From positions 1 through 29,174 of the IMG/VR virus record IMGVR_UViG_3300034520_000331: a DNA stretch of 29,174 bases, one strand, 5' to 3'. The notes under the pieces were generated by a model. The model had not been told where the DNA came from, did not search any database, and was given only the letters and a program-made list of their open reading frames with translations. The position numbers and the translations under genes were made by a program. Of the stretch, positions 133-29,174 are shown piece by piece; position 1 is the stretch's first letter; each line of letters begins with the position of its first letter. Source of the DNA: a virus.

Positions 133-1188
133 TTAATTGTTTTCCTTAATAATTCTCTCAATTTCTTTATATACAGACTTATTTGTAGTGTGCCCTTTAC
201 TGCAGTATTTATACATTCTAGTGATTCTTCCTGATAGCAAATTGGTCTTAGTACATATTATTTCAACTTTACCATTTTCGTTCTTTGTACTTATAGATAT
301 CTTATTATTACCTTTAAGTAAATAGTACAGTTCATTTGAATCTCCTGTAAAATTCCAATCGAGATTTTCATCTATATCACTTAAATCGTTCATCATTTGT
401 ATAACATTATTATATCGCTTACTTGTATCAATATCCAAGGCTTTTTTAATAATTCTTCTTAATTTATTAGGAATATGTGGTAAATAATAGTCTCTTTTGG
501 GATATTCACCTTTTAATATTACTTCTTTTAACTTGTTCTTGCTATCAATTTTTAGTGATGCAAATTGTTCTCTTAATATATTGTTGCCATTACAAATTCT
601 ATATAATGTTAATCCTATTTGGTAAATATCAGATAATACTGTTCTACCTGAATGAAGAAGAAATTCTGGGTCAAAATGATATGTATAGTTAATTGGCTGG
701 TTTGCAACTCCATTTTCATCTATATATCTTGATAAACCAAAATCAGTTAAAATTGCTCTATCAGATTGATCTAACAATACATTAGTAGGCTTTATATCTA
801 AATGAAGCAAACCTTTTGAATGGATGTATGCAACACCACTTAATAAATCTAAAGAATACTTTATTATTTCACGTACAGTTAGATGCTTTTTATCAATTAA
901 TGAATTTAAAGACCCTTTTTTATGATATGGCATAGATAGATAAATATAATTACTATCCTGTGAAGCATATTGTATCTCCATTATATTAGGATGCTTACAA
1001 TCGTATAATATTTTTGCTTCTAAAAAATACTCATCAATGTTATTAAACTTTGATATTTCCATCTGTTTAACAACAAGTTCTGCATCTAGTTGTTTATCTC
1101 TTGCCAAGAAAACTTTTGAATTCTTTCCCTCATTATTGCCTATAGGTCTAATTAAATCAAATTCAATATTAGCTTTTCTACATAACAT
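133..1188 (-). CDS. Hanks-type serine/threonine protein kinase
   Basis: About 351 residues; the ATG at 1188 is preferred because AGGAG lies 8 bases upstream. The kinase core is readable in order: glycine-rich loop region near 17-24, catalytic Lys in VVKQ (about 41), Glu in the alpha-C helix (about 57), HLDIKPTN catalytic loop (129-136), DFG (149-151), a DPE motif in place of APE (173-175), and Asp in SDIYQIG (187). The HLD form, without Arg before the Asp, marks it as a non-RD kinase. The last 80 residues form a separate alpha/beta tail I do not recognise. There is no membrane segment and no PASTA repeat, so it is cytoplasmic and unlike the housekeeping PrkC type. It lies downstream of an RNase H-fold gene and upstream of a third gene, after the terminase. 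I infer an accessory phage cargo or defence function; the catalytic activity is well supported, the role is not. Confidence 0.88.
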   Translation of the reverse strand: MLCRKANIEFDLIRPIGNNEGKNSKVFLARDKQLDAELVVKQMEISKFNNIDEYFLEAKILYDCKHPNIMEIQYASQDSNYIYLSMPYHKKGSLNSLIDKKHLTVREIIKYSLDLLSGVAYIHSKGLLHLDIKPTNVLLDQSDRAILTDFGLSRYIDENGVANQPINYTYHFDPEFLLHSGRTVLSDIYQIGLTLYRICNGNNILREQFASLKIDSKNKLKEVILKGEYPKRDYYLPHIPNKLRRIIKKALDIDTSKRYNNVIQMMNDLSDIDENLDWNFTGDSNELYYLLKGNNKISISTKNENGKVEIICTKTNLLSGRITRMYKYCSKGHTTNKSVYKEIERIIKENN

Positions 1189-1199
1189 AAACATCACTC

Positions 1200-4789: not shown

Positions 4790-5710
4790 TTACTCCCCTG
4801 CTGCCATTCTTTCAGGTCTTCCCCTTCTAAAAGCTGCATCCCCTTCTAGGTTTGCTAGTAGGTGAAGTCTTGCCGTTTCAAATTCTTCTCCAATAAGACC
4901 TAATCTTAAAAGCCAAGTTCTAAAGGTGTACTTTTCATTATCGGTTTGAGTTTTCTTAGAACTTGCACTTCTTTGGTTTAAGGCTTGATGACTTACTGCT
5001 AAACAAAACTGTATATAGGCCTTAATTTTCCCTGCATGGGTGGTACTATTAAAAATTCTAAACTCAACTGTATTACCATTGAAAAAGCTGTGGAGGCTAA
5101 GGCCATAATATCTACTTCTATGGTAATGCCTTCTACTATCTTCTAGACTATAATCTTCATACCAAAAGTCTTTAAATTCTTTTAGGTCTTTGGTTTTTTT
5201 CTTGTTAAGCCTTTCTAAAAATCTAGTGTTTACTTTTTTACAATACTTTGCTTCTCTCTTTTTGCTTACTTTCAAAGCTTTATAAATCAAATCTTCTTTG
5301 CTTGCAATGATATTGACTAAATTTTTCAAAGTTTTAGCTGTAAATTTTTCTTTTCCTACATGTATATGAATGCCACAAGATTCATTTTCAAAGGCTCCTA
5401 TCTTTCTAAGGCTTCTCACAATTTCCTGAATGGTTTCAATATCATCGTACTTACAAATTGGAGAAACCAACTCAACTCTATAGGTAGGGTTTGCAGAAAC
5501 CTTTATTTTTCCTTTTTTCTTTTGAGGAGTTAAGCTTGCATCATTTACAATCTTCCATGTTCTTCTATCAAAATCTTTAACTTCCCAAGTATCATATCCC
5601 CCACCTAAATGCCTTGCTTCTGTTTCAGAATAATCTGCTACTACCTTTGCTGCCTTTTCCCTTGTGATTCCCGTAAGTTCTATTTCAATCCCAAAGGTCA
5701 AATTTTTCAT
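4790..5710 (-). CDS. Phage amidoligase (ATP-dependent, glutamine synthetase-like fold)
   Basis: About 306 residues; ATG 5710 is chosen over an upstream TTG because GAGAGGG is spaced 8 bases before it. The motifs of the Amidoligase_2 family are present: GIEIELTG (7-14) with the paired Glu residues, RVELVSPI (78-85), SCGIHIHVG (111-119) with the His pair, and TVEFRIFNST later on. These residues bind ATP and metal in the glutamine-synthetase-like fold. The family joins amines or peptides to Glu/Asp carboxylates. The C-terminal 60 residues (NEKYTFRTWLLRLGLIGEEFE...) are shared with the next upstream gene's product, which has lost the catalytic motifs. A leader element with promoter-like boxes sits at 5726-5775. 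The protein substrate is unknown. Confidence 0.9.
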   Translation of the reverse strand: MKNLTFGIEIELTGITREKAAKVVADYSETEARHLGGGYDTWEVKDFDRRTWKIVNDASLTPQKKKGKIKVSANPTYRVELVSPICKYDDIETIQEIVRSLRKIGAFENESCGIHIHVGKEKFTAKTLKNLVNIIASKEDLIYKALKVSKKREAKYCKKVNTRFLERLNKKKTKDLKEFKDFWYEDYSLEDSRRHYHRSRYYGLSLHSFFNGNTVEFRIFNSTTHAGKIKAYIQFCLAVSHQALNQRSASSKKTQTDNEKYTFRTWLLRLGLIGEEFETARLHLLANLEGDAAFRRGRPERMAAGE

Positions 5711-5725
5711 ATCCAAAACCCTCTC

Positions 5726-5839: not shown

Positions 5840-6526
5840 TTATCTAAATGCACCATTACCTGTTAGATTTTTTAATAGAAGTTGTCTTGCCTTTTTATAT
5901 TCTGATCCTACAAATCCAAGTCTTATTAGAAAAGTTCTGAAGGTGAATTTTTCATTATTTGTTTCTGTAGGCTTCGGTGAAGATTGTTTTAACTTCCTTG
6001 CACTTTCATCAAGAGCCTTTGCAAATTGCATTGCTACTTCTATATCTTCAAAGGTTTTTAGGAAATTAAAGGATATTGTTTTATTATAAAAATCAAAACT
6101 TATTCCATGTATTTTTTCTGCTTCAATTTTTAGTGCTACACCTTTAAATTCCTCAAGGGTTGCTGGTTTTTCTTTAGTGATTTCTTCTATAAATTCTTTT
6201 GTTATAATATCTGCGTCAATTCCTACTGCCTTTTTAATAAGGAACTGTTTGCTATAAATCATATTTACTAGGTTTCTAAGGGTAACCCCTGTATGTCCAT
6301 CCATTGATAATATTAATTCCTCACCTTTGGTTTCTTCTTCGCCATTTAATAATGTTTCCAATTCAAATTCAGTACCTTCTAAATCTTTAATTTTTCCTTC
6401 CCTATCTATTATGAAAATTTGCCCTTCTTCTGTTGTAATCTGATATGCAAAGCTTGGTGCTCCCATATATTTAGGTCTAACTCCAAAATGCTCTCCTAAT
6501 TTTTTAACAAGTTCTTTTCTATTCAT
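5840..6526 (-). CDS. Amidoligase paralogue lacking catalytic motifs (pseudo-enzyme)
   Basis: A 228-residue protein, start ATG 6526 after AGGAGGAATAAGG. Its last 65 residues (NEKFTFRTFLIRLGFVGSEYKKARQLLLKNLTGNGAFR region) match the C-terminus of the downstream amidoligase, and LRNLVNMIYSKQFLIKKA matches LKNLVNIIASKEDLIYKA there. The N-terminal GIEIEL and the central GIHIHVG motifs are absent; the second aligns with LSMDGHTGV. The N-terminal 70 residues are different (GEHFGVRPKYMGAPSFAYQITTEEG). I infer a duplicated, catalytically silent partner that may bind substrate or pair with the active enzyme. Similar proteins are often labelled virulence-related. Its own leader element lies at 6538-6586. 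Confidence 0.8.
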   Translation of the reverse strand: MNRKELVKKLGEHFGVRPKYMGAPSFAYQITTEEGQIFIIDREGKIKDLEGTEFELETLLNGEEETKGEELILSMDGHTGVTLRNLVNMIYSKQFLIKKAVGIDADIITKEFIEEITKEKPATLEEFKGVALKIEAEKIHGISFDFYNKTISFNFLKTFEDIEVAMQFAKALDESARKLKQSSPKPTETNNEKFTFRTFLIRLGFVGSEYKKARQLLLKNLTGNGAFR

Positions 6527-6537
6527 CCTTATTCCTC

Positions 6538-6586
6538 CTGTACTTTTTGTTAATACATTAATCACTCTAAAGTACAGAATTATCAA
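6538..6586 (-). promoter_or_regulatory. Conserved leader element C: promoter-like core inside an inverted repeat, copy 3 of 3
   Basis: Minus strand: CTTGATAAT with TTGATA at 6586-6581, 17 bases, GATTAA at 6563-6558, and the core TTTAGAGTGATTAATG. Arms CTGTACTTT (6577-6569) and AAAGTACAG (6546-6538) are perfectly complementary over 22 bases. Their sequence differs from the arms of element B. The proximal arm overlaps the first two bases of the AGGAGG ribosome binding site. Confidence 0.65.
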
Positions 6587-6591
6587 GGGTT

Positions 6592-7941
6592 TTATTTATT
6601 TTCAGGTAAAGATTTTGCTACTTCATAAGCTACATTTACTGTAACTGCATTTCCTGCTTGTTTATAAAGTTGTGAATCAGAATTTACAGACCTAGCTTTT
6701 TCAAACAATTCATTTGGAAAACCTTGAAGCCTAAAGCATTCCTTTGGTGTAAGTCTTCTTATTCTATAGCTTTCTAAAAGTGTTCCCTGCATACACTTAG
6801 TATCCAAAGTTTGTGCTATCTTTTTACCTACTCTGCCTCGTCTTGTTTTACTACTTAGAAAGGAAATATTTATGCTATCTCCGATTTTAGCTTCAGCAAA
6901 TCCTTTTTTAGTAGCTTCTTTAATAGCAACACCATGTCTATCCTGTGAAGTTAAAGTAAACATTGGCTCATCGGCATTTTTCATTCTTCTTCCATTTTGA
7001 CGTTTTCTTTCTCTTTCAGGAGTTATAACGGCTCTAGCTTCAACAACTGCACTATTCATAGCAGTTCTATTTACAATTCCTGCAGTGTATCTTGAAGTAA
7101 TACATCTTGAGTTTTTAGTTAATTTAGGTTTTGTGTTGGATTGATCTATAAAATAAAGTCCTGTTTTAGCGCCTAAGCCTTCGCCATTTGCTGTTAAAGT
7201 AGGTGAAATCCCTTTTGCATCATATACATTTCCACTAGTACCTTTCCCACTTGGATTAATATTTCCAATTCGGTAAAGACCTGTCTTTGCTCCTACACCA
7301 CCTGCATTGCTTTGAAGTGTGCAGGATATCCCATCAGCATCATATACTCTATAACCTTGCATTCCACCTATAATTTGCTTAAGAGCTGCTGTGTTTTCTC
7401 CTTGGATAGGTAATATTTCTCGTCTACCTCTGCTTCTAAGATTTGCGATAATGAACACACGCTCTCGGTTTTGGGGAACTCCGAAGTCTTTAGAATTAAG
7501 CACCTGCCAGAGAGCATCATACCCTGCTTTGTAAATTTCAGTGAGAACTGTGGCAAAGTCCCATCCTCCATTAATTGATAGGAGGTTCTTAACGTTTTCA
7601 ATAAGTAAGTATGTGGGCTTATCTTTTTCTTCTTTGCCTTTGACAAGTTCAATAAATTTGAAATATAGTCCACTTCTTTTTCCACTGAGTCCTCTTTGTT
7701 TTCCTGCAACTGAGATATCAACGCATGGAAATCCTCCACACCAGATATCTGCATAGGGGATGTCTTCGCTTTTAAGTTTTGTAATATCATCTGCATACCA
7801 CTCACCTTCTGTATTAAACATTGCTCTATAACTTCTTACAGCAAATTTGTCTTTCTCGCAAAAACCAATACATTTATGTCCTGCAAGTTCTAATCCTAAT
7901 CGAAATCCACCTATTCCGGCAAAGAAATCTATAAATTCCAC
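6592..7941 (-). CDS. Phage DNA (cytosine-5) methyltransferase
   Basis: A 449-residue enzyme, start GTG 7941 because GGGGGTGAT lies six bases upstream; an ATG nine codons earlier has no ribosome binding site. Motif I is FIDFFAGIGGFRLG, motif IV GGFPCVDIS with catalytic Cys 73, motif VI IENVKN (115-119), and motif VIII QNRERVF (157-163). Motifs IX and X are RRLTPKECFRLQGFP and QAGNAVTVNVAYEVA. It transfers a methyl group from S-adenosylmethionine to C5 of cytosine. The variable region contains an internal duplication, YDADGISCTLQSNAGG...GAKTGLY followed by YDAKGISPTLTANGEG...GAKTGLY. No cognate endonuclease is adjacent. It is probably protective modification of phage DNA against host restriction, together with the neighbouring ParB-methyltransferase. 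Confidence 0.95.
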   Translation of the reverse strand: MEFIDFFAGIGGFRLGLELAGHKCIGFCEKDKFAVRSYRAMFNTEGEWYADDITKLKSEDIPYADIWCGGFPCVDISVAGKQRGLSGKRSGLYFKFIELVKGKEEKDKPTYLLIENVKNLLSINGGWDFATVLTEIYKAGYDALWQVLNSKDFGVPQNRERVFIIANLRSRGRREILPIQGENTAALKQIIGGMQGYRVYDADGISCTLQSNAGGVGAKTGLYRIGNINPSGKGTSGNVYDAKGISPTLTANGEGLGAKTGLYFIDQSNTKPKLTKNSRCITSRYTAGIVNRTAMNSAVVEARAVITPERERKRQNGRRMKNADEPMFTLTSQDRHGVAIKEATKKGFAEAKIGDSINISFLSSKTRRGRVGKKIAQTLDTKCMQGTLLESYRIRRLTPKECFRLQGFPNELFEKARSVNSDSQLYKQAGNAVTVNVAYEVAKSLPENK

Positions 7942-7953
7942 ATTATCACCCCC

Positions 7954-7991
7954 AAAAGAAAAGAGCATATAGCTAAATTGCTACTGCTCTT
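7954..7991 (-). terminator. Terminator hairpin overlapping the end of the ParB-methyltransferase gene
   Basis: Minus strand AAGAGCA (7991-7985) with TAGC pairs with GCTA and TGCTCTT (7967-7961), followed by TTCTTTT. The hairpin spans the TAG stop of the upstream gene and ends just before the ribosome binding site of the C5 methyltransferase, so it could reduce that gene's expression unless antiterminated. Confidence 0.65.
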
Positions 7992-9225
7992 TTACAACAT
8001 CTGAGTATTTTATTTTCTTATCATCTCTAATCAAAAACACCTCTACATCTGTTCCTGCCTGCTCTATATATCTTTTTACAATTACATCTACAAACTTTTC
8101 ATCAAGTTCTATAGTAAAGCAAATCCTATCTGTTTGCTCACAGGCTATTAATGTAGAGCCACTACCACCAAAGGGGTCAAGTACTATACAATTTGTCATA
8201 GATGAATTTTTTATAGGGTAAGCTACTAAAGGAATAGGTTTCATCGTACTATGGAGGTCACTCTTCGAAGGTTTATCAAATTCCCACACAGTTGTTTCAG
8301 TTCTTCCTGCATACCACTTGTGCTTCCCTTTTTTCTTCCATCCAAATAGGCAGGGCTCATGTTTCCATTGATATGGACTTCTACCCAAAACTAAAGATTG
8401 CTTTACCCATTGACAGACTCCTGATAAGTAAAATCCAGCATCATCAAATGCTTTTCTAAAAATGTGACCTTTTGTATCGGCATGAAAAACATATATAGAA
8501 GCATCATCTGCCATATTGTCATGCATATTCTTAAAGGCATCAAATAGAAATTTATAAAATTCTTCATCCTTCAAATTATCATTTTTAATAGTGCCTTTAC
8601 TTCCATCATAGGCTACCCCATATGGAGGATCAGTTACTACAAGATTTGCTTTTTTACCTTCCATCAGCTTTTTATATGTCTCTTCTTTTGTACTATCACC
8701 ACAAATAAGCCTATGCCTTCCAAGTATCCAAATATCCCCCTGCTTTGAAATGGGTGTTTCTTTTAAGGCTTCTTCCACATCAAAATCATCTTCATTAACA
8801 TCTTTATCATGAATCTGATTAAATAAATCATCTATCTCAGCCGCATCAAAACCTGTAAGGGAAATATCAAAGTCTAAATCTTTTAAAGCTTCAATTTCTA
8901 ATGCCAATAACTCATTGTCCCAACCTGCATCTAATGCTAATTTATTATCTGCTAGGATATAGGCTTTCTTTTGTGCTTCAGTTAAATGTTCTACTAAAAC
9001 ACATGGAACTTCTTTTATTCCTTCTTCTTTAGCAGCAGCTACCCTGCCATGGCCTGCTATGATATTTTTATCTTTATCTATAAGGATAGGATTTACAAAA
9101 CCAAATTCTCTAAGACTACTTCTTAATTTTTTTATCTGCTCTTTACTATGGGTTCTTGCATTATTCACATAAGGCACTAGTTCATCAATATCTATGATTT
9201 TTAGTTCTTCTGTTCTTTTCACCAT
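7981..9225 (-). CDS. ParB-domain / DNA adenine- or N4-cytosine methyltransferase fusion
   Basis: A 414-residue two-domain protein. Residues 1-115 form a ParB/sulfiredoxin-like domain (IDELVPYVNNARTHS, then IIAGHGRVAAAKEEG at 55-69, the nucleotide-binding motif). Residues 160-400 are a beta-class amino-methyltransferase: DPPYG (199-203) comes before the AdoMet-binding motif VLDPFGGSGSTLIA near 357. It methylates N6 of adenine or N4 of cytosine; which one cannot be decided by eye. This fusion is common in phages of Firmicutes. It starts at ATG 9225 behind a consensus AGGAGGTG. The gene lies between the HTH-Zn gene and the C5 methyltransferase, so the phage encodes at least two base-modifying enzymes side by side. 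Confidence 0.95.
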   Translation of the reverse strand: MVKRTEELKIIDIDELVPYVNNARTHSKEQIKKLRSSLREFGFVNPILIDKDKNIIAGHGRVAAAKEEGIKEVPCVLVEHLTEAQKKAYILADNKLALDAGWDNELLALEIEALKDLDFDISLTGFDAAEIDDLFNQIHDKDVNEDDFDVEEALKETPISKQGDIWILGRHRLICGDSTKEETYKKLMEGKKANLVVTDPPYGVAYDGSKGTIKNDNLKDEEFYKFLFDAFKNMHDNMADDASIYVFHADTKGHIFRKAFDDAGFYLSGVCQWVKQSLVLGRSPYQWKHEPCLFGWKKKGKHKWYAGRTETTVWEFDKPSKSDLHSTMKPIPLVAYPIKNSSMTNCIVLDPFGGSGSTLIACEQTDRICFTIELDEKFVDVIVKRYIEQAGTDVEVFLIRDDKKIKYSDVVKEQ

Positions 9226-16818: not shown

Positions 16819-18766
16819 CTAATCCTTTTTATAATAATCTGTTTCAAAACTATCAGCATTCAGCGGCAGACCTTTTGCCCAGCTAATAGGTCTTCCCATG
16901 ATTTCTTCTACTTCTTCCTTTGAACCCATGTCCTTTTTAACCTCAAGAATTACTTCATCATGGACATGAAATTTTATGTTATATCCTGCTTCATCAAGCC
17001 TTAACATTGCTACAGCTAGACAATCTCTTGCAATAGCTTGTATAATATTTTCTACAAGCTTACCCCCATAGGTAGGAATTCTACCCCACTGCTTTCCTTG
17101 TTCATTTCCTTCATAGGTAAGCTGCTCTTTTCCAAAACGCTCATCTACACCGATTTTAGGTCTTACATAGGAAAGAGAACGTCCTGAAGGCAGGGTAATA
17201 AATAAAATTCCTTTTTTATAATGAAATGTTAGTCCATACTGCATCTTTATTACTGCTTTTTCCTTCACTGCTTTTATTGCAGTAGCTTCAACATCCCACC
17301 AAAGCTTCACAGTATTTGGATTTGCATTTCGCCATGCTGTTACAAGTTCAGGTAATTCATCTTCCTTAAGTCCCATTTCAAATGCACCCATTTGCATTAA
17401 GGCTCCTTTAGATCCGCCATATCCAAGGGCAAGTTCTGCTATTTTTCCTTTCTGTCTTAATGGACTCCCCTTATCAATAGTTTCAATTGGTACTTTAAAC
17501 ATCTGTGCAGCTGATGCTTCATAAATCTTTCCATGAGAATTGAATACATCCATTCTCCACTTTTCCCCAGCAAGCCATGCTATAACTCTAGCTTCAATGG
17601 CACTAAAATCTGCTACGATAAATCTTGCATTTTCAGATGGTATGAAAGCTGTTCGTATAAGTTGTGATAATACATCAGCTGCATTATCAAAAAGAACATC
17701 TAATGCTTCAAAATTTCCTGATTTTAAAAGTTCTCTTGCTAAGTATAAATCTTTCATTTTATTCCTTGGCAGGTTGTGAATTTGAACAAGTCTGCCGGGC
17801 CCACCTCCCGGTTCTATTCGCACCATAAAACTGCAGCAGTCCACGAATTCTATTATCACTACATATAGAACGCATCATAGCTTCATACTTTTTCACAGAA
17901 GTTTTTGACATAGCTTGTCTTAGTTCTAATAGCTTTTTTACTTCTAAGTTGCCTACTTCACGTATAAGACTTTCAACCTTCTTTTTAGAAAGACTATCCA
18001 CTTCTATCCCTTTTTCTTTAAGCCAACTTTTTATTTGAGAAGGGCTATTAGGATTTTCAAGTCCTGTTAAATCCACAGCTTCATTGTAAAGTTTTCCTTG
18101 AAATTCTGTATCTGCTTTGATTGCATTTTTAACAAGTGCTGTATCAACTAAAACTCCCCCATCATTTATTCTTTGATCTAACTCCCAAAGTTTTTGCTCC
18201 ATCTTTGGGATAGAAAAGGCTTCTAGTTTCTTTCTTATGAGCCTTTCCACCTCAACATCCTGTTTGCAGTATTTTTTAAATATCTGCCACTTTTTTATGT
18301 CATGCTTTGGTAAATTTCTATTCCTTCCACCGTTTGCTTTTGTAGGTTTACAGGGCATAGAGAAATATCTGATTAAAGCTTTACCTTCCTTCATTTTTTG
18401 CTCCGGTAGCTTTAAACACTTAGCTACTCCATCTAAACTTCCCGGAAGCCCTAATGTTAAGGCATGAACCTGTGAACATCTCCACTCCTTAGGTGGCATT
18501 GGTTTTTTAAGATATTTTGCTAAACAAGTTCTTTCAAAATTTGCATTATAGGCTGTTTTTATAACGGTTGAATCTGTTAATGCATTAATAACATTTTCAG
18601 GAATTTTCTCCCCTTGAGCTAAATCAATAATTTGTACTTCTTCATCATTAAAGGCATATGCAAAAAGTAATATTTCAAAATCCTCTGAGTCACAGTAGGC
18701 ATAAACGCCACATTTGGTTAAGTCTTTACTACTGTAGGTTTCAAGATCTATACTTAAAATTGTCAT
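16819..18766 (-). pseudogene. Family A DNA polymerase of the phage, split by a one-base frameshift
   Basis: The first frame (18766-17759, 335 aa) carries a 3'-5' exonuclease domain: SIDLETYS, AYNANFE, and the later KQDVEVE. It leads up to LLQFYGANRTGRWA, then shifts to RQTCSNSQPAKE and stops. The second frame (open 17859-16819) carries GRLVQIHNLPRNK and the polymerase motifs: A (VADFSAIEARVIAWL), B (RQKGKIAELALGYGGSKGA), C (FHVHDEVILE). Deleting one base in the GGG run at 17797-17799 joins GRWA to GRLVQ and gives one 648-residue protein, the normal length for these phage polymerases. All catalytic motifs survive, so the lesion is recent, or a sequencing error. The ATG at 17859 has no ribosome binding site I trust. 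Confidence 0.9.
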
Positions 18767-21341: not shown

Positions 21342-21704
21342 ATGTCTCATAATTTTTCAACTGAAATGACTTTAGGTAAATATATCGCAAAAAAAAGAAA
21401 AGCTAAAAATTTGAGCCAACGTGAATTAGCAAAGGATATTAAAATAAGTCATTCTACTATATCTAGAATTGAAAAAGATGACGGTATCTCCCCAGACAAT
21501 TCTACTTTAAGAGCCTTAGCAAAAAGATTAGATTTAGATTATAATTATTTGCTTGCACTTAATAAGTCCATTGATGATGAACCTGAAATTCGTGTCATCC
21601 AAAGAGCTGCGAAAAAAATGAATGCCGCTCAAAAAAAGAAAATGTTAAATATTCTTAAGGCTTCTTTTGATGATTTATTCGATGAGGATGATGATGTTGA
21701 ATGA
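21342..21704 (+). CDS. cI-like XRE-family repressor
   Basis: A 120-residue protein starting at ATG 21342 with AAAGGAGGTGCTTAT upstream; an in-frame upstream ATG lies inside the promoter. The N-terminal XRE HTH is LGKYIAKKRKAKNLSQRELAKDIKISHSTISRIEKDDG. A linker and an acidic C-terminal tail (AAQKKKMLNILKASFDDLFDEDDDVE) follow. It lacks the LexA-like self-cleaving domain, so inactivation is probably by the adjacent ImmA/IrrE peptidase, as known for ICEBs1 ImmR/ImmA. Its stop overlaps the ImmA start (ATGA). Confidence 0.92.
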   Translation: MSHNFSTEMTLGKYIAKKRKAKNLSQRELAKDIKISHSTISRIEKDDGISPDNSTLRALAKRLDLDYNYLLALNKSIDDEPEIRVIQRAAKKMNAAQKKKMLNILKASFDDLFDEDDDVE

Positions 21705-23017
21705 CACCAAATTATGATTTAGCAGTAAAAGAGAGCATCAATACATTAAATGAATATGGATTTAATTCCATTCCTATAAATTTGGATATAATTTTTACAG
21801 AACTAAAAAGAACAATAAAAAAATGCTCTTATAGCAAATTTTCAATTCAATCTGGATTGAGCATCGATGAAATTTGTGAATACTTTGAAAGTGATTTAGG
21901 TGCTTGTGTATATGACCGTAGTAGAGAGCGATATGTTATATATTATAATGATACTAAGCTTAATCCCGCACTAGATAGATTTACAATAGCTCATGAACTC
22001 GGTCATTTTTTCTTAAATCATTATGAATATGTAGATACCGATATTTTATTAAGAAAACCCTTATCTGAAAAAAAATATAAAAAATTTGAAAATGAAGCAA
22101 ATTGTTTTGCTCGTAATCTTCTTGCTCCTGTTCCTTTGGTTAATAGAGTTACAAATATCAAATGTACTAATTCCACAACTGATATTATGAATGCTTTTGA
22201 TGTTTCATTTAAAGCTGCTAAAGCAAGACTTGATTTCTATAAAGTAGATAATTATAGAATGACAGCTGATTATTACACCTATTTTAATACATATACTATT
22301 TCTTATGGTTACTATTGTTTAAACTGCAAAAACAGCGAAGTAGATAACTCTAAACATTGTAAAATATGTGGACAGGGATATAGTGTTTTTGAAAAAGGAG
22401 TTGATAGAGTGCTTTATGATGGTTTAGAGTTAGATAGCAATATGAAATTAAAGGTTTGTCCAAAATGCTTAAATTCTTATTTCTCTGAAAATGAAGATAA
22501 ATGTAATATATGTGGACAGTATTTATTTAATGATTGTTCTAATGACTTCTGTGGTATTACTAAATTGTCTGGAAATACTCGCTGTTGTCCCGAGTGTGGT
22601 TCTGATACAACATTTGTATATTCTGGTATATTAAAAAATTGGGAGGATTCTTTAATTTTCCAATTAAACAAATTAGAATTCGAAAGTGATCTTTGTGGAA
22701 AATATGGAAAGTCTATAGAAATAGATGACTGGTCTTTTTTTGTTTTTGAACTAAAAAATAATAATAAAGAGTACATAAGCAAGCTTTTAGAACACACTAC
22801 AGCAAAACTATGTGGTAGTACACTGATAATTTATGCTCCAAACCCTATAATAAAAGAAAAACTTGATAATCAATATATTCTTGAAATTATTATGGACAAT
22901 CTTGAACCAGAATTTAGTATAAAAGCTGATAACATAGAAATAGCCTGTATAGAAGATTTCTATCCAAAACATTCTGCTACTATTGATAAGATTGATGATT
23001 CTGATATACCATTTTAA
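21701..23017 (+). CDS. ImmA/IrrE-family metallopeptidase with zinc ribbons and a replication-protein-like C-terminus
   Basis: 438 residues, far longer than the usual 150-250. The N-terminal peptidase has HELGH (98-102) and the third ligand in FENEANCFARNLLAP (Glu 132), so it should be an active zinc protease; by analogy with ICEBs1 it cleaves the coupled repressor. Residues 200-300 hold several CxxC pairs (CLNC, CKIC, CPKC, CNIC, CPEC), consistent with two or three zinc ribbons. Residues 343-400 (DWSFFVFELKNNN..., STLIIYAPNPIIKEKLDNQY) resemble DnaA domain I, a helicase/regulator-binding KH-like domain; DnaX domain V is similar. The last eight residues, IDDSDIPF, mimic the SSB C-terminal peptide (DDDIPF). 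The last two readings are my inference from pattern. Confidence 0.88.
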   Translation: MTPNYDLAVKESINTLNEYGFNSIPINLDIIFTELKRTIKKCSYSKFSIQSGLSIDEICEYFESDLGACVYDRSRERYVIYYNDTKLNPALDRFTIAHELGHFFLNHYEYVDTDILLRKPLSEKKYKKFENEANCFARNLLAPVPLVNRVTNIKCTNSTTDIMNAFDVSFKAAKARLDFYKVDNYRMTADYYTYFNTYTISYGYYCLNCKNSEVDNSKHCKICGQGYSVFEKGVDRVLYDGLELDSNMKLKVCPKCLNSYFSENEDKCNICGQYLFNDCSNDFCGITKLSGNTRCCPECGSDTTFVYSGILKNWEDSLIFQLNKLEFESDLCGKYGKSIEIDDWSFFVFELKNNNKEYISKLLEHTTAKLCGSTLIIYAPNPIIKEKLDNQYILEIIMDNLEPEFSIKADNIEIACIEDFYPKHSATIDKIDDSDIPF

Positions 23018-23331: not shown

Positions 23332-24387
23332 TTATTTATTACTTCTTTTAATTACTTCTTCTGCAATAGCTTTCCCTAATAATGGTGGAACTGCATTACC
23401 AACCTGTTTCATCTGTGAGGATTTCTTTCCGTAAAAGATAAAGCTATCTGGAAATGACTGAAGCCGTGCAGCTTCTCTCACAGTTATGCATCTATTAAGA
23501 AATGGATGAGTAAATCTTCCAGAAGATGGAGTGTCAAATCTTGTCGTAATAGTGACAGATTGTTCATTTCCTATCATCCTAGACCAAGTTCCACTATAAA
23601 TAGATTTTGTTAATAACTCTTTGGGTAATATTTCTTTACCCATACCAACTGGTATCATCTTTAATTTTTCAATAGACTCTTTGGAATGATTAGTAGCTAC
23701 GTGATTATGAAGTATATTCATTGTCCCTCGCATTGTTTTTTGATATTCTGAATTTGGTAGAAAAGGATATATTTGTTGTTCCTTACCTTCTCCAGCTTCA
23801 AGAAAAGCCAAATCACTGATTGCTTCATCAATTGTAACTTTTGGTGATTTACCTTCAGGAAGATTAACTTTGTCAGTACCTAAACTTCCCAAAATAAAAG
23901 CTCTCCGTCTTATTTGTGGGACACCAAAATCAGCAGCATTTAAAACCTTACAATCAAGAGTATAACCGATATTTTGAAATAATTTTTCTATTTCTTTTTT
24001 AAAAAATCCGCTTTCTGCAGTTAAAAGGTTAGGGACATTTTCCATTAAAAAATACTTAGGTCTTAAGAATTCAACTACTTTATAATAATATCGAAATAAA
24101 AAATTTCTTTCATCATGAATTGTTTTTCTACTTCCCTTTTGAGAAAACCCTTGACAAGGTGGTCCTCCAATAACCATATCTATTGAATCTCTATAGTGTC
24201 CAAATGTTTTTTCGATATCTAGCTTTGTTATATCTTCATTAATCATTTTTGTTCCTTTATGATTTTTTGTATAAGCGTAGGCAATATCTGAGTCTTTCTC
24301 ATTAGCAAGAACAATTTCACAACCTGCTTCAGCAAACCCAAATGAGAGTCCGCCTACACCCGCAAATAAATCTACTACTTTTAGCAT
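23332..24387 (-). CDS. DNA (cytosine-5) methyltransferase of the restriction-modification operon
   Basis: A 351-residue enzyme of typical length. Motif I VVDLFAGVGGLSFGF (4-18), motif IV GGPPCQGFS with catalytic Cys 78, motif VI MENV, motif VIII QIRRRAFI. The target recognition region lies around 190-290, followed by CITVREAARLQSFPDSF and QVGNAVPPLLGKAIA. It methylates cytosine at C5. It is the last gene of the operon, 12 bases after the N-methyltransferase stop, with AAGGAGAATTTGTT before ATG 24387. Unlike the phage C5 enzyme at 6592, it accompanies McrBC-like restriction genes, so it should protect the host DNA from them. Confidence 0.96.
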   Translation of the reverse strand: MLKVVDLFAGVGGLSFGFAEAGCEIVLANEKDSDIAYAYTKNHKGTKMINEDITKLDIEKTFGHYRDSIDMVIGGPPCQGFSQKGSRKTIHDERNFLFRYYYKVVEFLRPKYFLMENVPNLLTAESGFFKKEIEKLFQNIGYTLDCKVLNAADFGVPQIRRRAFILGSLGTDKVNLPEGKSPKVTIDEAISDLAFLEAGEGKEQQIYPFLPNSEYQKTMRGTMNILHNHVATNHSKESIEKLKMIPVGMGKEILPKELLTKSIYSGTWSRMIGNEQSVTITTRFDTPSSGRFTHPFLNRCITVREAARLQSFPDSFIFYGKKSSQMKQVGNAVPPLLGKAIAEEVIKRSNK

Positions 24388-24399
24388 AACAAATTCTCC

Positions 24400-25164
24400 T
24401 TAAACACTATTAATTACCTTCAACTCATATTTTTCATTTGTTTGAACATCTGCTATTCTTTTAAGAGCTATATCAAAATAGCTTTCTTTAAGTTCAATTC
24501 CTATAAAACTCCTACCACATCTTTTAGAAACGACTCCTGTTGTTCCACTGCCCATAAAAGGATCCATAACAACGTCTCCTGGATTTGATAATATTTCTAC
24601 AAAATGTTGAATGATAGACTCAGGTTTTTGAGTTGGATGTCCACCATACTTCTTTTCGCTTTTAGGCGTAACTGAACTTTCTACAAAATCATGAATAGCC
24701 AAGGAATTATTATTAAAAATTCCTGTTTTAGCTTGATTAATAAAATAAACCCACCCTTCAACAGAATTAATAAAGTGTAAATTCATATTTCTAGGCATCG
24801 GATTAGTCTTATGCCATATTCCTGTTGTTTTGTAATAAAATTTATTTTTTTCTGCAAGCTTAATAATTGTCTCAATTTTAATTAATGACATAAATACTAT
24901 CATTGAACCACCTTTTTTTAAAATTCGCTGTGATTCTTCAAAAAAGCTGTTCATATGTTTAGTCCACTCTTCAAACTCTAAATCATCCCAACCTGCATCT
25001 CCAAAAAAGTTCTCTCTCATTTTTTTCAAATTGGTATCACGATTGCGCATAAAATTACCTAAATTATATGGTGGATCTGTTACTATCAGATCCACGCTAT
25101 TGTTTTTTAGATTCTTCATAGTATCTATACAATTTCCTTTAATTAACATCATATTACTTTCCAT
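24400..25164 (-). CDS. DNA N4-cytosine/N6-adenine methyltransferase of the restriction-modification operon
   Basis: A 254-residue beta-class amino-methyltransferase: TDPPYNLGNF (29-38) precedes the AdoMet motif VVMDPFMGSGTTGV (about 196-209), and GGHPTQKPESII is the usual middle motif. No separate DNA-recognition domain is obvious apart from the segment around 40-75. Adenine and cytosine specificity cannot be told apart by eye. ATG 25164 follows AGAAGGAGATAAAT, 16 bases after the McrC-like gene. A second methyltransferase of a different chemistry in one operon suggests an asymmetric recognition site with one enzyme per strand. Confidence 0.95.
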   Translation of the reverse strand: MESNMMLIKGNCIDTMKNLKNNSVDLIVTDPPYNLGNFMRNRDTNLKKMRENFFGDAGWDDLEFEEWTKHMNSFFEESQRILKKGGSMIVFMSLIKIETIIKLAEKNKFYYKTTGIWHKTNPMPRNMNLHFINSVEGWVYFINQAKTGIFNNNSLAIHDFVESSVTPKSEKKYGGHPTQKPESIIQHFVEILSNPGDVVMDPFMGSGTTGVVSKRCGRSFIGIELKESYFDIALKRIADVQTNEKYELKVINSV

Positions 25165-25180
25165 ATTTATCTCCTTCTAA

Positions 25181-26413
25181 TTAAGTTAATAAATCTCGTA
25201 AGTGCTTTTTAAATAAAGTTTCATTTGTAGCAATAGACAAATCTACAGCACGTATCTTTAATTCCTTATCTGGAACAACATTAATAAAGGTATAATCTCC
25301 AACTACAGTATCTACCCTCTGTGTTTTTGGATACATAAGAATTGCTATATTTACTTTTGGAATTGCAGAAATGTATGCATTCATTTGATATACATCAGAT
25401 TCCTTTGCAAATGATTTTACAACTTTCCATTTTGCATCAACAACTATTTTAAATCCTTTATCAGTATTTATCAAGATATCAGGTTTAAGTTTAACTTTCT
25501 TTATGGTTCCTGTTTTGTTTGAAATCAAATAATTTTTACTATATTGATATGATATGTTTGAACCACAAATCTTTTTATATGATTTAAAAATAAACATTTC
25601 AAAAATCTTATTCATATCAAACAACATGGAAGTAACCGAGTGTTTTCCATTACTTAAACTAATAGTGTATCCTTCTAAAAATAAGTTGCTATATTCAATA
25701 ATTTCTTTAATCCTTGAGTTAATCCTTGTAATTTGAATATTTATATTAATAAGTTGTTGTTCATTAATTTGACTAACTTCATCAAAATATATTAAAGCTG
25801 TATTTAATCGTTTTATATTTGAAAAATCTTTACTAATTTTTTTCATTTCGATCATCGTGTACTTTATCAGCTGATTAACATTATTATCTATATCAAGTTT
25901 TGAATACTTGCAAAAAAATCTAGTTGGATTTATTACATTCTTATTAATATGCTTAGAAAAAACTACACTCCCTTTAACAGTAGTAATATTATTCACGACT
26001 TTGCGGTAAGAAGATAAAAAACCCTCTCTAATGTAGTATTCTATTTTTTCTAAGTAATTTGATATTAATATTTCAACCAATCCATTTTTAGAAAAGTCAA
26101 CTTTGGCATTAATATTCCTTTTAGTAGGTATATTATAAGCAATTTTAAACATATATAATAATGTTTCTTTAACTTCAGCATCATTATTCGAATTAGATAT
26201 TTTAGGTAAAATTTCCAAAGAAAGTCCCGGTAAACTTATCACTCCTACCCATTGTTGTGGAGTAATATATCTATTACCCCATTTGAAAATACCTTTATTA
26301 TTAATATCAATTATTCTAATAGATTCTGCATCTGCCTTTGAAATCTGTTTCTTTGCAATATCTCTTTTTTTTCCAATATAAATTTTTTCGTGTTCCAAAA
26401 CAGTTAAAATCAT
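25181..26413 (-). CDS. mcrC: McrC-like restriction nuclease subunit
   Basis: A 410-residue member of the McrBC 5-methylcytosine restriction family. The N-terminal half (FKWGNRYITPQQWVGVISLPGLSLEILPKI) is the McrC fold that contacts the McrB ring. The C-terminal half has the PD-(D/E)xK site: KLKPDILINTD followed by FKIVVDAKWK. The later QMNAYISAIPKVNIAILMYP completes the core. It cuts DNA when activated by the GTPase. Its ATG overlaps the mcrB stop (ATGA), so the two subunits are coupled. Confidence 0.93.
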   Translation of the reverse strand: MILTVLEHEKIYIGKKRDIAKKQISKADAESIRIIDINNKGIFKWGNRYITPQQWVGVISLPGLSLEILPKISNSNNDAEVKETLLYMFKIAYNIPTKRNINAKVDFSKNGLVEILISNYLEKIEYYIREGFLSSYRKVVNNITTVKGSVVFSKHINKNVINPTRFFCKYSKLDIDNNVNQLIKYTMIEMKKISKDFSNIKRLNTALIYFDEVSQINEQQLININIQITRINSRIKEIIEYSNLFLEGYTISLSNGKHSVTSMLFDMNKIFEMFIFKSYKKICGSNISYQYSKNYLISNKTGTIKKVKLKPDILINTDKGFKIVVDAKWKVVKSFAKESDVYQMNAYISAIPKVNIAILMYPKTQRVDTVVGDYTFINVVPDKELKIRAVDLSIATNETLFKKHLRDLLT

Positions 26414-27678
26414 AAAATCACTCCATCGTATATCTTTACGATAGCATCTTTATCAAAGCCTTTATTTACATAATAAACTTTCTTTGTTTCAATTGCATAC
26501 TCTCCAACAAAAGTCAACAATCTATCTACTTCAAGCTCTTCATGACAGTATATTGCATTACTAACTAAAGCTCCTGTGTCATCTATGTCATTTAATATCA
26601 TCTGAACTTTTTGTAAATCATTAAAGAAATACTCTTCTAGCAATGGAATGATTTTTTTCTCTAATATATCTTTGATATCTTTCCAACAGCTTACTTTCAT
26701 AAAAAAAGCATGTCCAATTATGTAATTACTGTCTAACAACAACTCTATTCTCTTATTTATAACTTTTAGTAACTTTATTACATCAATACCATCTACATTT
26801 TTTGCATCTACACCTCTAACTTTAAGTGCCTTGCTTAACTCTTCATATTCACACGGAAAATTAATAAAATCAAATCTTCTTCGTAGTGCAATGTCTATTG
26901 TTGCTATAGATTTATCTGCTGAGTTCATAGTTCCTATTATATTGAGATTATTTGGTACAGTAAAAGTTGTTTTTGAATAAGGTAATACAGCTTCTAATTC
27001 ACAATATTGTCCTTCTCTTTTATCTAACTCAATTAAACTAATTAATTCTCCAAAAATTTCAGATATGTTTCCTCTATTAATCTCATCAATGAACAAAGCA
27101 TATTGCTTTAGTGGATTTTTTCTTGCAATTTCACATATCTTCTTGAATATTCCATCTTGTGGATTGTATGTTAATATCTTTGTTACTGGATCAATAGACG
27201 GTCTTATTCCTTCAATAAAATCTTCATACACAAACGATTGATGAAAAGTAACAAAATCATACCTTTTTTCAATTTTAGCATTTTTCATATATTTAACCAT
27301 AAAGTCAGAGTCATGCTCTAATAACTTTAATCTATCTACAAACCACTTTCCACTGGATTCAAAAAAAATGCGTGGCAATTTTCTTAACACACCTATCGGA
27401 GATTCTTCAATAGAATGTTCTTCTAATACATCAGACACTGTACCAGTATAGCCTAGACCTAAAGTTTTTATTTTCTTAACAATATCTGGAGATGTCATTG
27501 GATTGTTATTTTGTAAAAGTACCAGTGTTATAAGTAACCAATCTTCAGATCTAAGAGTGTATGCTGCATGAATATCTTTATCGTCAATATGATAATCCGT
27601 ATACTTTTCAATTTGCTTTTGCATAAAATATGTTTTACCTGTTCCTGGGGGACCATAATAAATTACATTCTTTGCCAT
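26410..27678 (-). CDS. mcrB: McrB-like GTPase subunit without the usual N-terminal DNA-binding domain
   Basis: A 422-residue AAA+ protein. Walker A GPPGTGKT is at residues 9-16, so nothing precedes the motor; Walker B is LFIDEINRGN (195-204). MNSADKS (251-257) matches the McrB signature MNTADRS linked to GTP use, and IALRRRFDF holds the arginine finger. FHQSFVYEDFIEGIRP is another family hallmark. About 75 residues inserted after Walker A (LLITLVLLQNNNPMTSPDIVKKIKTLG...PRIFFESSGKWFVD, near 48-115) look like a winged helix of the HARE-HTH type. DNA recognition is therefore expected from this insert or from the LAGLIDADG protein encoded four bases upstream. Confidence 0.93.
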   Translation of the reverse strand: MAKNVIYYGPPGTGKTYFMQKQIEKYTDYHIDDKDIHAAYTLRSEDWLLITLVLLQNNNPMTSPDIVKKIKTLGLGYTGTVSDVLEEHSIEESPIGVLRKLPRIFFESSGKWFVDRLKLLEHDSDFMVKYMKNAKIEKRYDFVTFHQSFVYEDFIEGIRPSIDPVTKILTYNPQDGIFKKICEIARKNPLKQYALFIDEINRGNISEIFGELISLIELDKREGQYCELEAVLPYSKTTFTVPNNLNIIGTMNSADKSIATIDIALRRRFDFINFPCEYEELSKALKVRGVDAKNVDGIDVIKLLKVINKRIELLLDSNYIIGHAFFMKVSCWKDIKDILEKKIIPLLEEYFFNDLQKVQMILNDIDDTGALVSNAIYCHEELEVDRLLTFVGEYAIETKKVYYVNKGFDKDAIVKIYDGVIL

Positions 27679-27682
27679 TTTC

Positions 27683-28447
27683 TTACCTTCTCTCTATTGC
27701 TTTTAATCCTTTTAATATATTATCTTCGTTTTTAACTTTGTAATAGTTCACCATATCATAAGAACTCGTTGCAACATCAAATTTCTTTTTTGATATGAAC
27801 CCTATCTTTTCTACATAATTTTCACTTCCTGGAATCCTAAGTTGATCTTTTCTACGATTTCCACCTTCTAATCGTTCTCTTGCTTCTCCTCCATTATAAT
27901 TATAAGTGAATCCATAATCATCTAATACTTCACATAAAAATCTACCTACTATTTCATTTTCACAATCTAAAACAACGTATCTTATAGCACCAGTCTTTTT
28001 ATTTTTGTCAATAGACCCTCTTCCATCAAACATACCAGCTATAAAACATTTTTTAACTTCCTGTGATGATGCAAATAAAGCTCTTTTCACTTCTGGAATC
28101 ATATCTTCTAACCTTTGTTCATCTTTACTCCTAAAAAAAGTTCCGAATCCTACTAAACGATTAAATTTCCCAGAATCTAATTTATTACTTCTTATAGTTG
28201 ATGCCATCAATGTTTGATTCGATAATTTAGCAGCCAAAGCCTTAACATGTTGAAAATGATCCTCTAATTCTTCATTAGTTAAATATCCATTGTTATGTCT
28301 AACTGGTGCAATCCAGTATTTATTTCCATTGGCTATAACACTTTCATTGGCAGCAAATATACCTCCCAAAAAGTATGCACTTTCATTTATTAGATACTTC
28401 GTTCCCATTTCTAAATCAATATTTATAATTTGATATTTTTTTTGCAT
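27683..28447 (-). CDS. LAGLIDADG-fold protein with degenerate active sites, putative specificity subunit of the McrBC-like system
   Basis: A 254-residue protein. Two LAGLIDADG helices are readable: LGGIFAANE (27-35) and IAGMFDGRG (136-144), each at the start of a roughly 110-residue repeat, the single-chain monomeric layout. In active enzymes the eighth position of the motif is the metal-binding Asp or Glu; here it is Asn 34 and Arg 143. Cleavage is therefore unlikely, while the DNA-binding saddle could remain. It begins at ATG 28447 after AGGGGGGATATTAGG and ends four bases before mcrB. I infer a DNA-recognition role for the GTPase/nuclease pair. A remnant homing enzyme is the alternative. 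Confidence 0.75.
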   Translation of the reverse strand: MQKKYQIINIDLEMGTKYLINESAYFLGGIFAANESVIANGNKYWIAPVRHNNGYLTNEELEDHFQHVKALAAKLSNQTLMASTIRSNKLDSGKFNRLVGFGTFFRSKDEQRLEDMIPEVKRALFASSQEVKKCFIAGMFDGRGSIDKNKKTGAIRYVVLDCENEIVGRFLCEVLDDYGFTYNYNGGEARERLEGGNRRKDQLRIPGSENYVEKIGFISKKKFDVATSSYDMVNYYKVKNEDNILKGLKAIERR

Positions 28448-28519
28448 CCTAATATCCCCCCTAAAATATTTTTTAATTTATTACTTTTTTGTATAGTCGA
28501 TATATAAATCGTATAATAC

Positions 28520-28714
28520 TTAATTAGATTTAGATGCACCACCATTCTTAACCCATTCATCAATTTCACTAATCTTAAATTTCCATAGTTTACCTACACG
28601 GTGACAAGGAATACATTGATTTCGTATCCATTTGTGGATTGTATCCTTGTTAACCCCAAGATGTTGAGCAATTTCTTTTGTAGATACCCATCTCTCAGCT
28701 ACATTATCACTCAT
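28520..28714 (-). CDS. Excisionase-family (MerR-like) DNA-binding protein
   Basis: About 64 residues from ATG 28714, with GAGAGGTGCATTTAT upstream. The whole protein is a winged helix of the Xis/HTH_17 type: WVSTKEIAQHLGVNKDTIHKWIRNQCIPCHRVGKLWKFKISEIDEWVKNGG. It could be a true excisionase, given its place next to the element's host junction. It could equally be the controller of the restriction operon it heads, as such small HTH proteins often precede restriction and defence genes. A 14-base palindrome lies upstream at 28783-28796. Confidence 0.85.
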   Translation of the reverse strand: MSDNVAERWVSTKEIAQHLGVNKDTIHKWIRNQCIPCHRVGKLWKFKISEIDEWVKNGGASKSN

Positions 28715-28782
28715 ATAAATGCACCTCTCAAAATACTTTTTTATATATTTTATCATTTTCAACTTTGCTTGTATATATTTTT

Positions 28783-29020: not shown

Positions 29021-29174
29021 CTATTTCTTCTCTATCAAGACGACTGTCTCCACATGGCTTGTTTGAGGAAACATATCTACAATAGATAATTTTGTTAATT
29101 TATATCCATTTGATACTAATATTTCTACATCTCTAGCTAATGTTGATGGATTACATGATATATATACTAATTCA
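29021..29174 (-). CDS. rlmD: 23S rRNA (uracil-5-)-methyltransferase RlmD, C-terminal end (partial)
   Basis: The last 50 residues of a gene whose 5' part lies beyond the right edge. [16 protein letters not shown] contains the SCNP catalytic-site motif of the RumA/TrmA family, with its nucleophilic Cys. [19 protein letters not shown] is the conserved C-terminus. The enzyme makes 5-methyluridine in 23S rRNA. This is the only chromosomal gene in the window and it marks the edge of the element; the coding end appears intact. The 3' end of this gene family is a known integration site, for example of the streptococcal element Phi-m46.1. Confidence 0.92.

Follow-up and report, generated by a model that had tools for sequence, protein, structure and literature searches.

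How does an McrB-type GTPase find its site on DNA when the domain that would read the sequence is missing from it? The question is posed by a restriction-modification operon near the end of IMG/VR virus record IMGVR_UViG_3300034520_000331, analysed here over all of its 29,174 bases (the window), with the operon genes lying within 23332-28717 on the minus strand. Known McrB readers are N-terminal domains of the DUF3578, YTH or B3 type (PMC7680126). The McrB-like GTPase of the window (26410..27678, minus strand; 422 amino acids (aa); NCBIfam McrB 5e-41, Thermococcus McrB 1e-49) is without an N-terminal domain, with only 8 residues before Walker A, and four bases upstream of its gene lies the gene of a 254-aa protein with two LAGLIDADG motifs (27683..28447, minus strand), which we call LAG. 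Both of these facts had been given in an initial annotation made from the DNA letters alone, and both stand. Our answer is that the operon is quite probably a LlaJI-like restriction-modification system, in which LAG is a detached, cleavage-dead LAGLIDADG specificity subunit.

The initial annotation had also named five co-directional genes and their families. Coordinates and family matches bear this out, with the addition of a sixth gene that had been missed, for a small helix-turn-helix (HTH) protein at the head of the operon. The five open reading frames at 23332-28447 (minus strand) are tightly packed: 4 bases separate LAG from McrB, McrB and McrC overlap by 4 bases, and gaps of 16 and 12 bases follow. 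McrC (25181..26413, minus strand; Pfam McrBC 4.5e-62) is a nuclease subunit with an intact PD-(D/E)xK site, PD(311)..DAK. NMT (24400..25164, minus strand; Pfam N6_N4_Mtase 1.2e-43; DPPY at 30, FMGSG at 203) is a beta-class DNA methyltransferase predicted to act on N6 of adenine, and C5M (23332..24387, minus strand; Pfam DNA_methylase 2.5e-78; TIGR00675 2e-65) is a C5-cytosine DNA methyltransferase. The catalytic motifs of all four enzymes are intact (GPPGTGKT and MNSAD in McrB, PD..DAK in McrC, DPPY/FxGxG in NMT, and PPC, ENV and QxRxR in C5M).

The assignment of LAG to the LAGLIDADG fold is weak by Pfam, where the single sequence matches LAGLIDADG_3 at E = 0.0015, under the cut-off, and holds by profile matches and by a structural model. 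Searched against whole genomes, a profile of LAG and its homologues picks up WhiA at E about 1e-5 to 1e-3, and among viral sequences it matches the endonuclease of a phage intein as well as a homing endonuclease that stands free and keeps an intact DGDG motif; all three are only distant superfamily members. An AlphaFold model built from three sequences, with a predicted local distance difference test (pLDDT) score of 62.7 and a predicted template modelling (pTM) score of 0.71, has two LAGLIDADG helices within two alpha-beta-beta-alpha repeats, as membership of the fold demands. The 45 best PDB matches of this model are all LAGLIDADG proteins (inteins, I-DmoI, PI-SceI, WhiA). The best of them has E = 1.3e-3 and no single structure reaches E < 0.001, and it is the unanimity of the list that we judged convincing.

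Whether LAG could still cut depends on its two metal positions, which are occupied by Asn34 in motif 1 (LGGIFAANE) and Arg143 in motif 2 (IAGMFDGRG), as initially reported. The acidic residue at both motif ends that an active LAGLIDADG homing endonuclease needs is absent from LAG. In the seven LAG sequences covering motif 2, a shallow alignment on which all of the motif counts rest, D141, G142, R143 and D147 never vary, nor do R192, Q202, R204 and I205 of the second half, so that motif 2 has Arg in 7/7. The motif 1 position is variable, being Asn, Asn, Asp (L008; L numbers are our handles for loci), Asn or Glu according to register (L066), Cys, Cys, and Leu or Tyr (L151). Because motif 2 always has Arg and motif 1 varies, two intact metal sites are impossible in any of the seven. 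It is therefore very improbable that LAG is still a nuclease or nickase adding its own cut to McrC cleavage, an idea to which the Asp kept in L008, the possible Glu in L066 and the Glu at residue 35 of the window protein lend something, but against which stand the motif residues themselves, the intact McrC, and the LAG members fused to an HNH domain, which bring an intact nuclease of their own. Arg143, at the position of a metal-binding acid, may contact the DNA backbone instead.

The family is rare, and comprises the window and seven more genes, reached via McrB, via NMT and by genome profile searches; scans with single sequences gave no relatives of LAG. All eight LAG-family genes found lie in restriction operons, and no free-standing, intron or intein member was found among them. 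The same gene set is present in five loci. Besides the window these are L165, a Clostridia genome with the whole operon at 71-89% identity to the window; L008, another prophage, in the order HTH-NMT-C5M-LAG-McrB-McrC; L066 from Kurthia huakuii, in the order LAG-McrB-McrC-NMT-C5M; and L166, which has the four other genes and the LAG C-terminus at a contig end. L151 has NMT-LAG-McrB-McrC, with an McrB of another branch. In L150 and L202, LAG is fused to a C-terminal HNH domain in a gene divergent from an NMT-C5M pair 65-68% identical to that of the window, beside an McrB and McrC of LlaJI type. This distribution leaves hardly any credence for the view that LAG is left over from an unrelated homing endonuclease and only travels with the operon. 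Phages often carry homing endonucleases, and we did meet a free one and an intein in phages, but LAG is kept beside McrB across different genomes with R143, D141, D147, R192, Q202 and R204 conserved, it is HNH-fused in two genomes, and a free-standing member of its own family was not found.

Nine weak genome matches to the LAG profile were set aside, the six inspected by sequence looking like histidine kinases, and the weak matches of another genome profile search were, where inspected, WhiA and not LAG relatives. A search for LAG through 148 genomes from the same phylum as the Saprospiraceae locus was negative, although it had no positive control and so shows little. Two viral contigs, L222 and L223, carry truncated NMT, C5M and McrC genes of the window type, with no LAG or McrB recognised, and are probably a decayed copy of the system.

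The methyltransferase pair offers a way to ask what LAG replaces. Searches of genomes, phages and plasmids with NMT found the pair in Streptococcus phage phiD12, two gut phages, an Acinetobacter plasmid and three bacterial genomes (one of them L202), with identities to the window of 57-67% for NMT and 53-68% for C5M; five other genomes have an NMT-like gene and no sign of the remaining system. The phiD12 pair, 67% and 65% identical to that of the window, is accompanied by a nuclease annotated as LlaJI. In the six loci with standalone LAG, the open frame before the McrB Walker A holds 8-67 residues, versus 284-423 residues in eight loci without standalone LAG. Once this pattern had been seen, viral contigs were scanned as well; with a copy of phiD12 excluded, they added nine more pair loci with 299-483 residues before Walker A and LAG in none. 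Standalone LAG is thus present in 6/6 loci where the McrB N-terminal domain is missing and in 0/17 where it is present (Fisher p about 1e-5, a value that overstates independence since the loci are related by descent). The link to mcrB that the initial annotation supposed is in this sense a strict one. Its three tests, for free-standing homologues, acidic motif residues and a missing link to mcrB, all left its view standing, and the presence of LAG as a separate gene just where the domain is missing is what a replacement reader predicts.

The LlaJI-type McrBs that accompany relatives of the pair share, as their extra N-terminal region, a single homologous domain about 300 residues long. It is better conserved than the AAA+ part of the same proteins, with identities for N-terminus versus AAA+ of 46% versus 33% in L199, 45% versus 31% in L203 and 50% versus 33% in L211. 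In phi1207.3 the methyltransferase is an unrelated one, with only 29% identity to C5M; there the GTPase still reaches 46% identity, but its N-terminal region has no match. By these comparisons the domain stays with the methyltransferase pair when the GTPase changes branch; it follows the pair and not the motor, and so behaves as the pair's specificity module. Searches with the domain (L150 3234-5213, minus strand, and 16 related McrBs) gave no Pfam or PDB family match, and it is probably an uncharacterised reader domain. That it might be a diverged LAG was rejected by profile comparison.

The HNH fusions show LAG in a second setting. In both genomes (L150 and L202) the HNH residues are intact and the gene adjoins the same methyltransferase pair. 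Over 150 residues the HNH module shares 43% identity with HNH enzymes from Klebsiella plasmids, whose N-terminal domain differs from LAG and is found in McrB N-termini, at E = 8e-17 in L049 and more weakly in L026, L025, L006, L093 and L095. Since this domain sits on HNH enzymes and at McrB N-termini alike, readers are swapped between nuclease and motor, and LAG too occurs with either. The LAG-HNH fusions, together with an N-terminal domain that follows the methyltransferase pair, make the recruitment of LAG as a reader, proposed in the initial annotation, the best reading of the locus. It is likely, further, that a domesticated, cleavage-dead LAGLIDADG domain is a general swappable DNA-specificity module of bacterial restriction, which at least two McrBC branches use as a free subunit and HNH nucleases as a fused reader, with a related pair of N6-methyladenine (m6A) and 5-methylcytosine (m5C) methyltransferases.

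Two side observations concern these HNH proteins. The plasmid HNH endonuclease (L152 1507-2415) is widespread, with matches in 1,391 plasmid records, mostly Klebsiella; no annotated methyltransferase adjoins it in the two loci inspected, and for that reason it may be modification-dependent. The LAG operon of L151 also encodes a 445-aa HNH protein (6290-7624, minus strand) whose N-terminal part aligns with LAG by hhalign at E = 0.099, which is not significant; this part may be a diverged second LAG domain.

Could LAG instead be a transcriptional controller of the operon? WhiA, a LAGLIDADG-fold regulator, is a precedent (PMC3781837), and controller genes are frequent in restriction operons, but we give this idea very little weight. 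The operon already has a separate HTH gene (28520..28717, minus strand), encoding a 65-residue small DNA-binding protein of HTH_17/excisionase type (Pfam HTH_17 1.4e-13; NCBIfam MAD1 5.8e-17, below the MAD1 cut-off). It lies 72 bases upstream of the LAG gene in the same direction, a related HTH gene directly precedes the methyltransferase gene in L008 and L199, and the product of the window gene is the probable operon regulator. LAG, on the other hand, is four bases from mcrB, is HNH-fused elsewhere, and is absent as a separate gene from just those loci whose McrB carries an N-terminal domain. Scans of its 254 aa with Pfam and NCBIfam matched no HTH family.

The McrB of the window has a second candidate for contact with DNA, which the initial annotation overlooked, as it did the relatives of the same methyltransferase pair in LlaJI-type systems. 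Residues from about 46 to 114, inside the GTPase domain, form an insertion modelled as a winged helix, with three helices and a beta hairpin at pLDDT mostly about 85-95. The distance from Walker A to FHQS in McrBs falls mostly into two groups, of about 20-50 and 130-153 residues, with the window McrB in the longer one, and it is the longer group that carries the insertion. If the winged helix were the sequence reader, LAG would be an accessory (such as a loader, inhibitor or scaffold). The quality of the model is in favour of this, as is a census of CoCoNuT systems, in which GTPase inserts probably encode specificity domains (PMC11090510), and L080 has a naked McrB with a 286-residue insert adjoining two C5 methyltransferases. 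Yet the insertion is found throughout an McrB clade, some of whose members have an N-terminal region of their own or no methyltransferase nearby (L002-L004, L067, L068). Being common to clade members of other contexts, it does not track this specificity. The McrB that accompanies LAG in L151 is of the other branch and lacks the insertion, and a winged-helix reader would leave LAG-HNH unexplained. We regard this rival as quite unlikely; the winged helix is a clade feature, and could add a non-specific grip on DNA.

LAG as the detached reader therefore remains our preferred explanation, and several points should be counted against it. The LAG model is only moderately confident, and a profile search of PDB sequences gave nothing useful, leaving LAG with no solved sequence relative. 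The winged-helix insertion of McrB could bind DNA. The family is rare, with few matches in over 1,000 Bacillota genomes, and standalone LAG occurs in only two McrB branches. Naked McrBs without any LAG exist (L067, L085, L096, L105), so a missing reader domain alone does not require a LAG nearby; beside these four, and beside L011 and L080, we recognised no separate reader. Lastly, the best known LAGLIDADG protein that has lost cleavage, WhiA, relies chiefly on an added HTH to bind DNA (PMC3781837), and LAG does not have one.

Comparison of sequences supplies the gene content, the fold, the missing acids, the missing McrB domain and its complementarity with LAG, the LAG-HNH fusion, and the intact motifs in the other enzymes. 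From these we infer DNA binding by LAG, a target sequence, a LAG-McrB contact, the loss of cleavage by LAG and the restriction of unmethylated DNA, in the following scheme. NMT and C5M would mark the two strands of a probably asymmetric site, one with m6A and one with m5C, and the GTP-driven McrB/McrC would cut DNA in which this site is unmodified. LAG, from its separate upstream gene, would supply the recognition that an McrB without N-terminal domain lacks. As a predicted monomer with two unequal halves it would be suited to an asymmetric site, and it would bind the unmodified target and position the McrB ring with McrC, via the short McrB N-terminus or another contact, after which McrC would cut.

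The carrier of the operon is a prophage of a gut-type Clostridia bacterium, of which the record covers a fragment. The left two thirds of the record are minus-strand phage genes (terminase, helicases/primase, DNA polymerase, exonuclease), and the phage part includes a patch with 78-81% DNA similarity to Lachnospiraceae phages. A lysogeny module of an Xre-type repressor and an M78 (ImmA-like) peptidase (21345..23017, plus strand; Pfam HTH_3 6e-15, Peptidase_M78 8.6e-13) borders the operon as context, and the operon sits beyond it, toward the record end. There, outside the system, a translation gives the C-terminus of RlmD (29021..29173, minus strand), the 23S rRNA m5U methyltransferase; this stretch is probably chromosomal and flanks the prophage. 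In L165 (18034-18999) the rlmD gene is about 8 kb away from the operon, and in L150 (11199-12701) it is 2.5 kb from the LAG-HNH gene; with rlmD near the system in these two loci as in the window, its 3' end looks like an integration hotspot for elements with this system. Elsewhere in the phage part, the DNA polymerase at 16819-18766 (minus strand) is split over two overlapping frames (PHROG 17 positions 670-976, then 980-1232), which suggests a frameshift, real or assembly-derived. Besides the operon pair, two extra phage DNA methyltransferases at 6592-9225 (minus strand), one of them fused to a ParB-like domain, are possibly anti-restriction, and amidoligase-like and serine/threonine-kinase-like genes (4790-5716 and 133-1197, minus strand) flank the terminase genes.

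If LAG is the reader, the literature we searched has no earlier case of a restriction enzyme with a LAGLIDADG reader, nor of an McrBC machine whose specificity subunit is detached. We found no open-access literature linking LAGLIDADG to McrB or to restriction specificity, and subscription papers or unpublished surveys could hold such a link. The system would be a case of selfish homing endonucleases recruited to phage defence as specificity subunits, much as WhiA was turned into a regulator, and LAG would be the cleaner case of the saddle itself being kept as the reader. It would give McrBC a detachable reader like HsdS, and how McrB is loaded at a site could be studied on a reader and a motor that are two different proteins. 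LAG-HNH, and the same methyltransferase pair with another fused reader, make up a natural swap set in which motor, nuclease and reader can be varied singly. LAGLIDADG saddles have already been engineered for new targets, and an McrBC motor that accepts such a saddle as its reader could in principle be re-aimed.

Set beside known systems, LAG has the fold and two-motif layout of the LAGLIDADG homing endonucleases I-DmoI and PI-SceI, but its catalytic acids are replaced and its context is a restriction operon. WhiA, which the LAG profile detects, is likewise a domesticated LAGLIDADG fold without catalysis, and differs as a regulator with a DNA-binding C-terminal HTH where LAG has none. The McrB GTPase and McrC nuclease are homologous, with intact motifs, to those of the Type IV McrBC of E. 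coli and Thermococcus; unlike these, the window system has no methyl-reading N-terminal domain (DUF3578, YTH) and has two cognate methyltransferases, so that modified DNA should be protected and not attacked. MAD1 of the methylation-associated defence system (MADS) is similar to the small HTH (E = 5.8e-17, below the cut-off), but membership of MADS was rejected, as no other MADS component was found in the operon and the match of McrB to MAD8 is marginal (E = 0.0057). The McrBC census mentioned above reports frequent methyltransferase association and probable GTPase specificity inserts, leaves the methyltransferase-linked branches for a later paper, and does not mention LAGLIDADG (PMC11090510). 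The nearest relation is to LlaJI-type systems, which likewise combine two methyltransferases with an McrB-like GTPase and an McrC-like PD-(D/E)xK nuclease, in LlaJI R1.LlaJI and R2.LlaJI; of these, R1.LlaJI, the McrB-like subunit, is by experiment the sole specificity subunit (PMC1459862). LlaJI has two C5 methyltransferases where this operon has a predicted m6A and m5C pair, and the GTPase here is of another branch, with the winged-helix insertion. In LlaJI the specificity is fused N-terminally to the GTPase, whereas here 8 residues precede Walker A and there is a separate LAG instead. We file the system as a variant of LlaJI, because it would work alike and departs from it in the fused specificity domain, a defining LlaJI feature.

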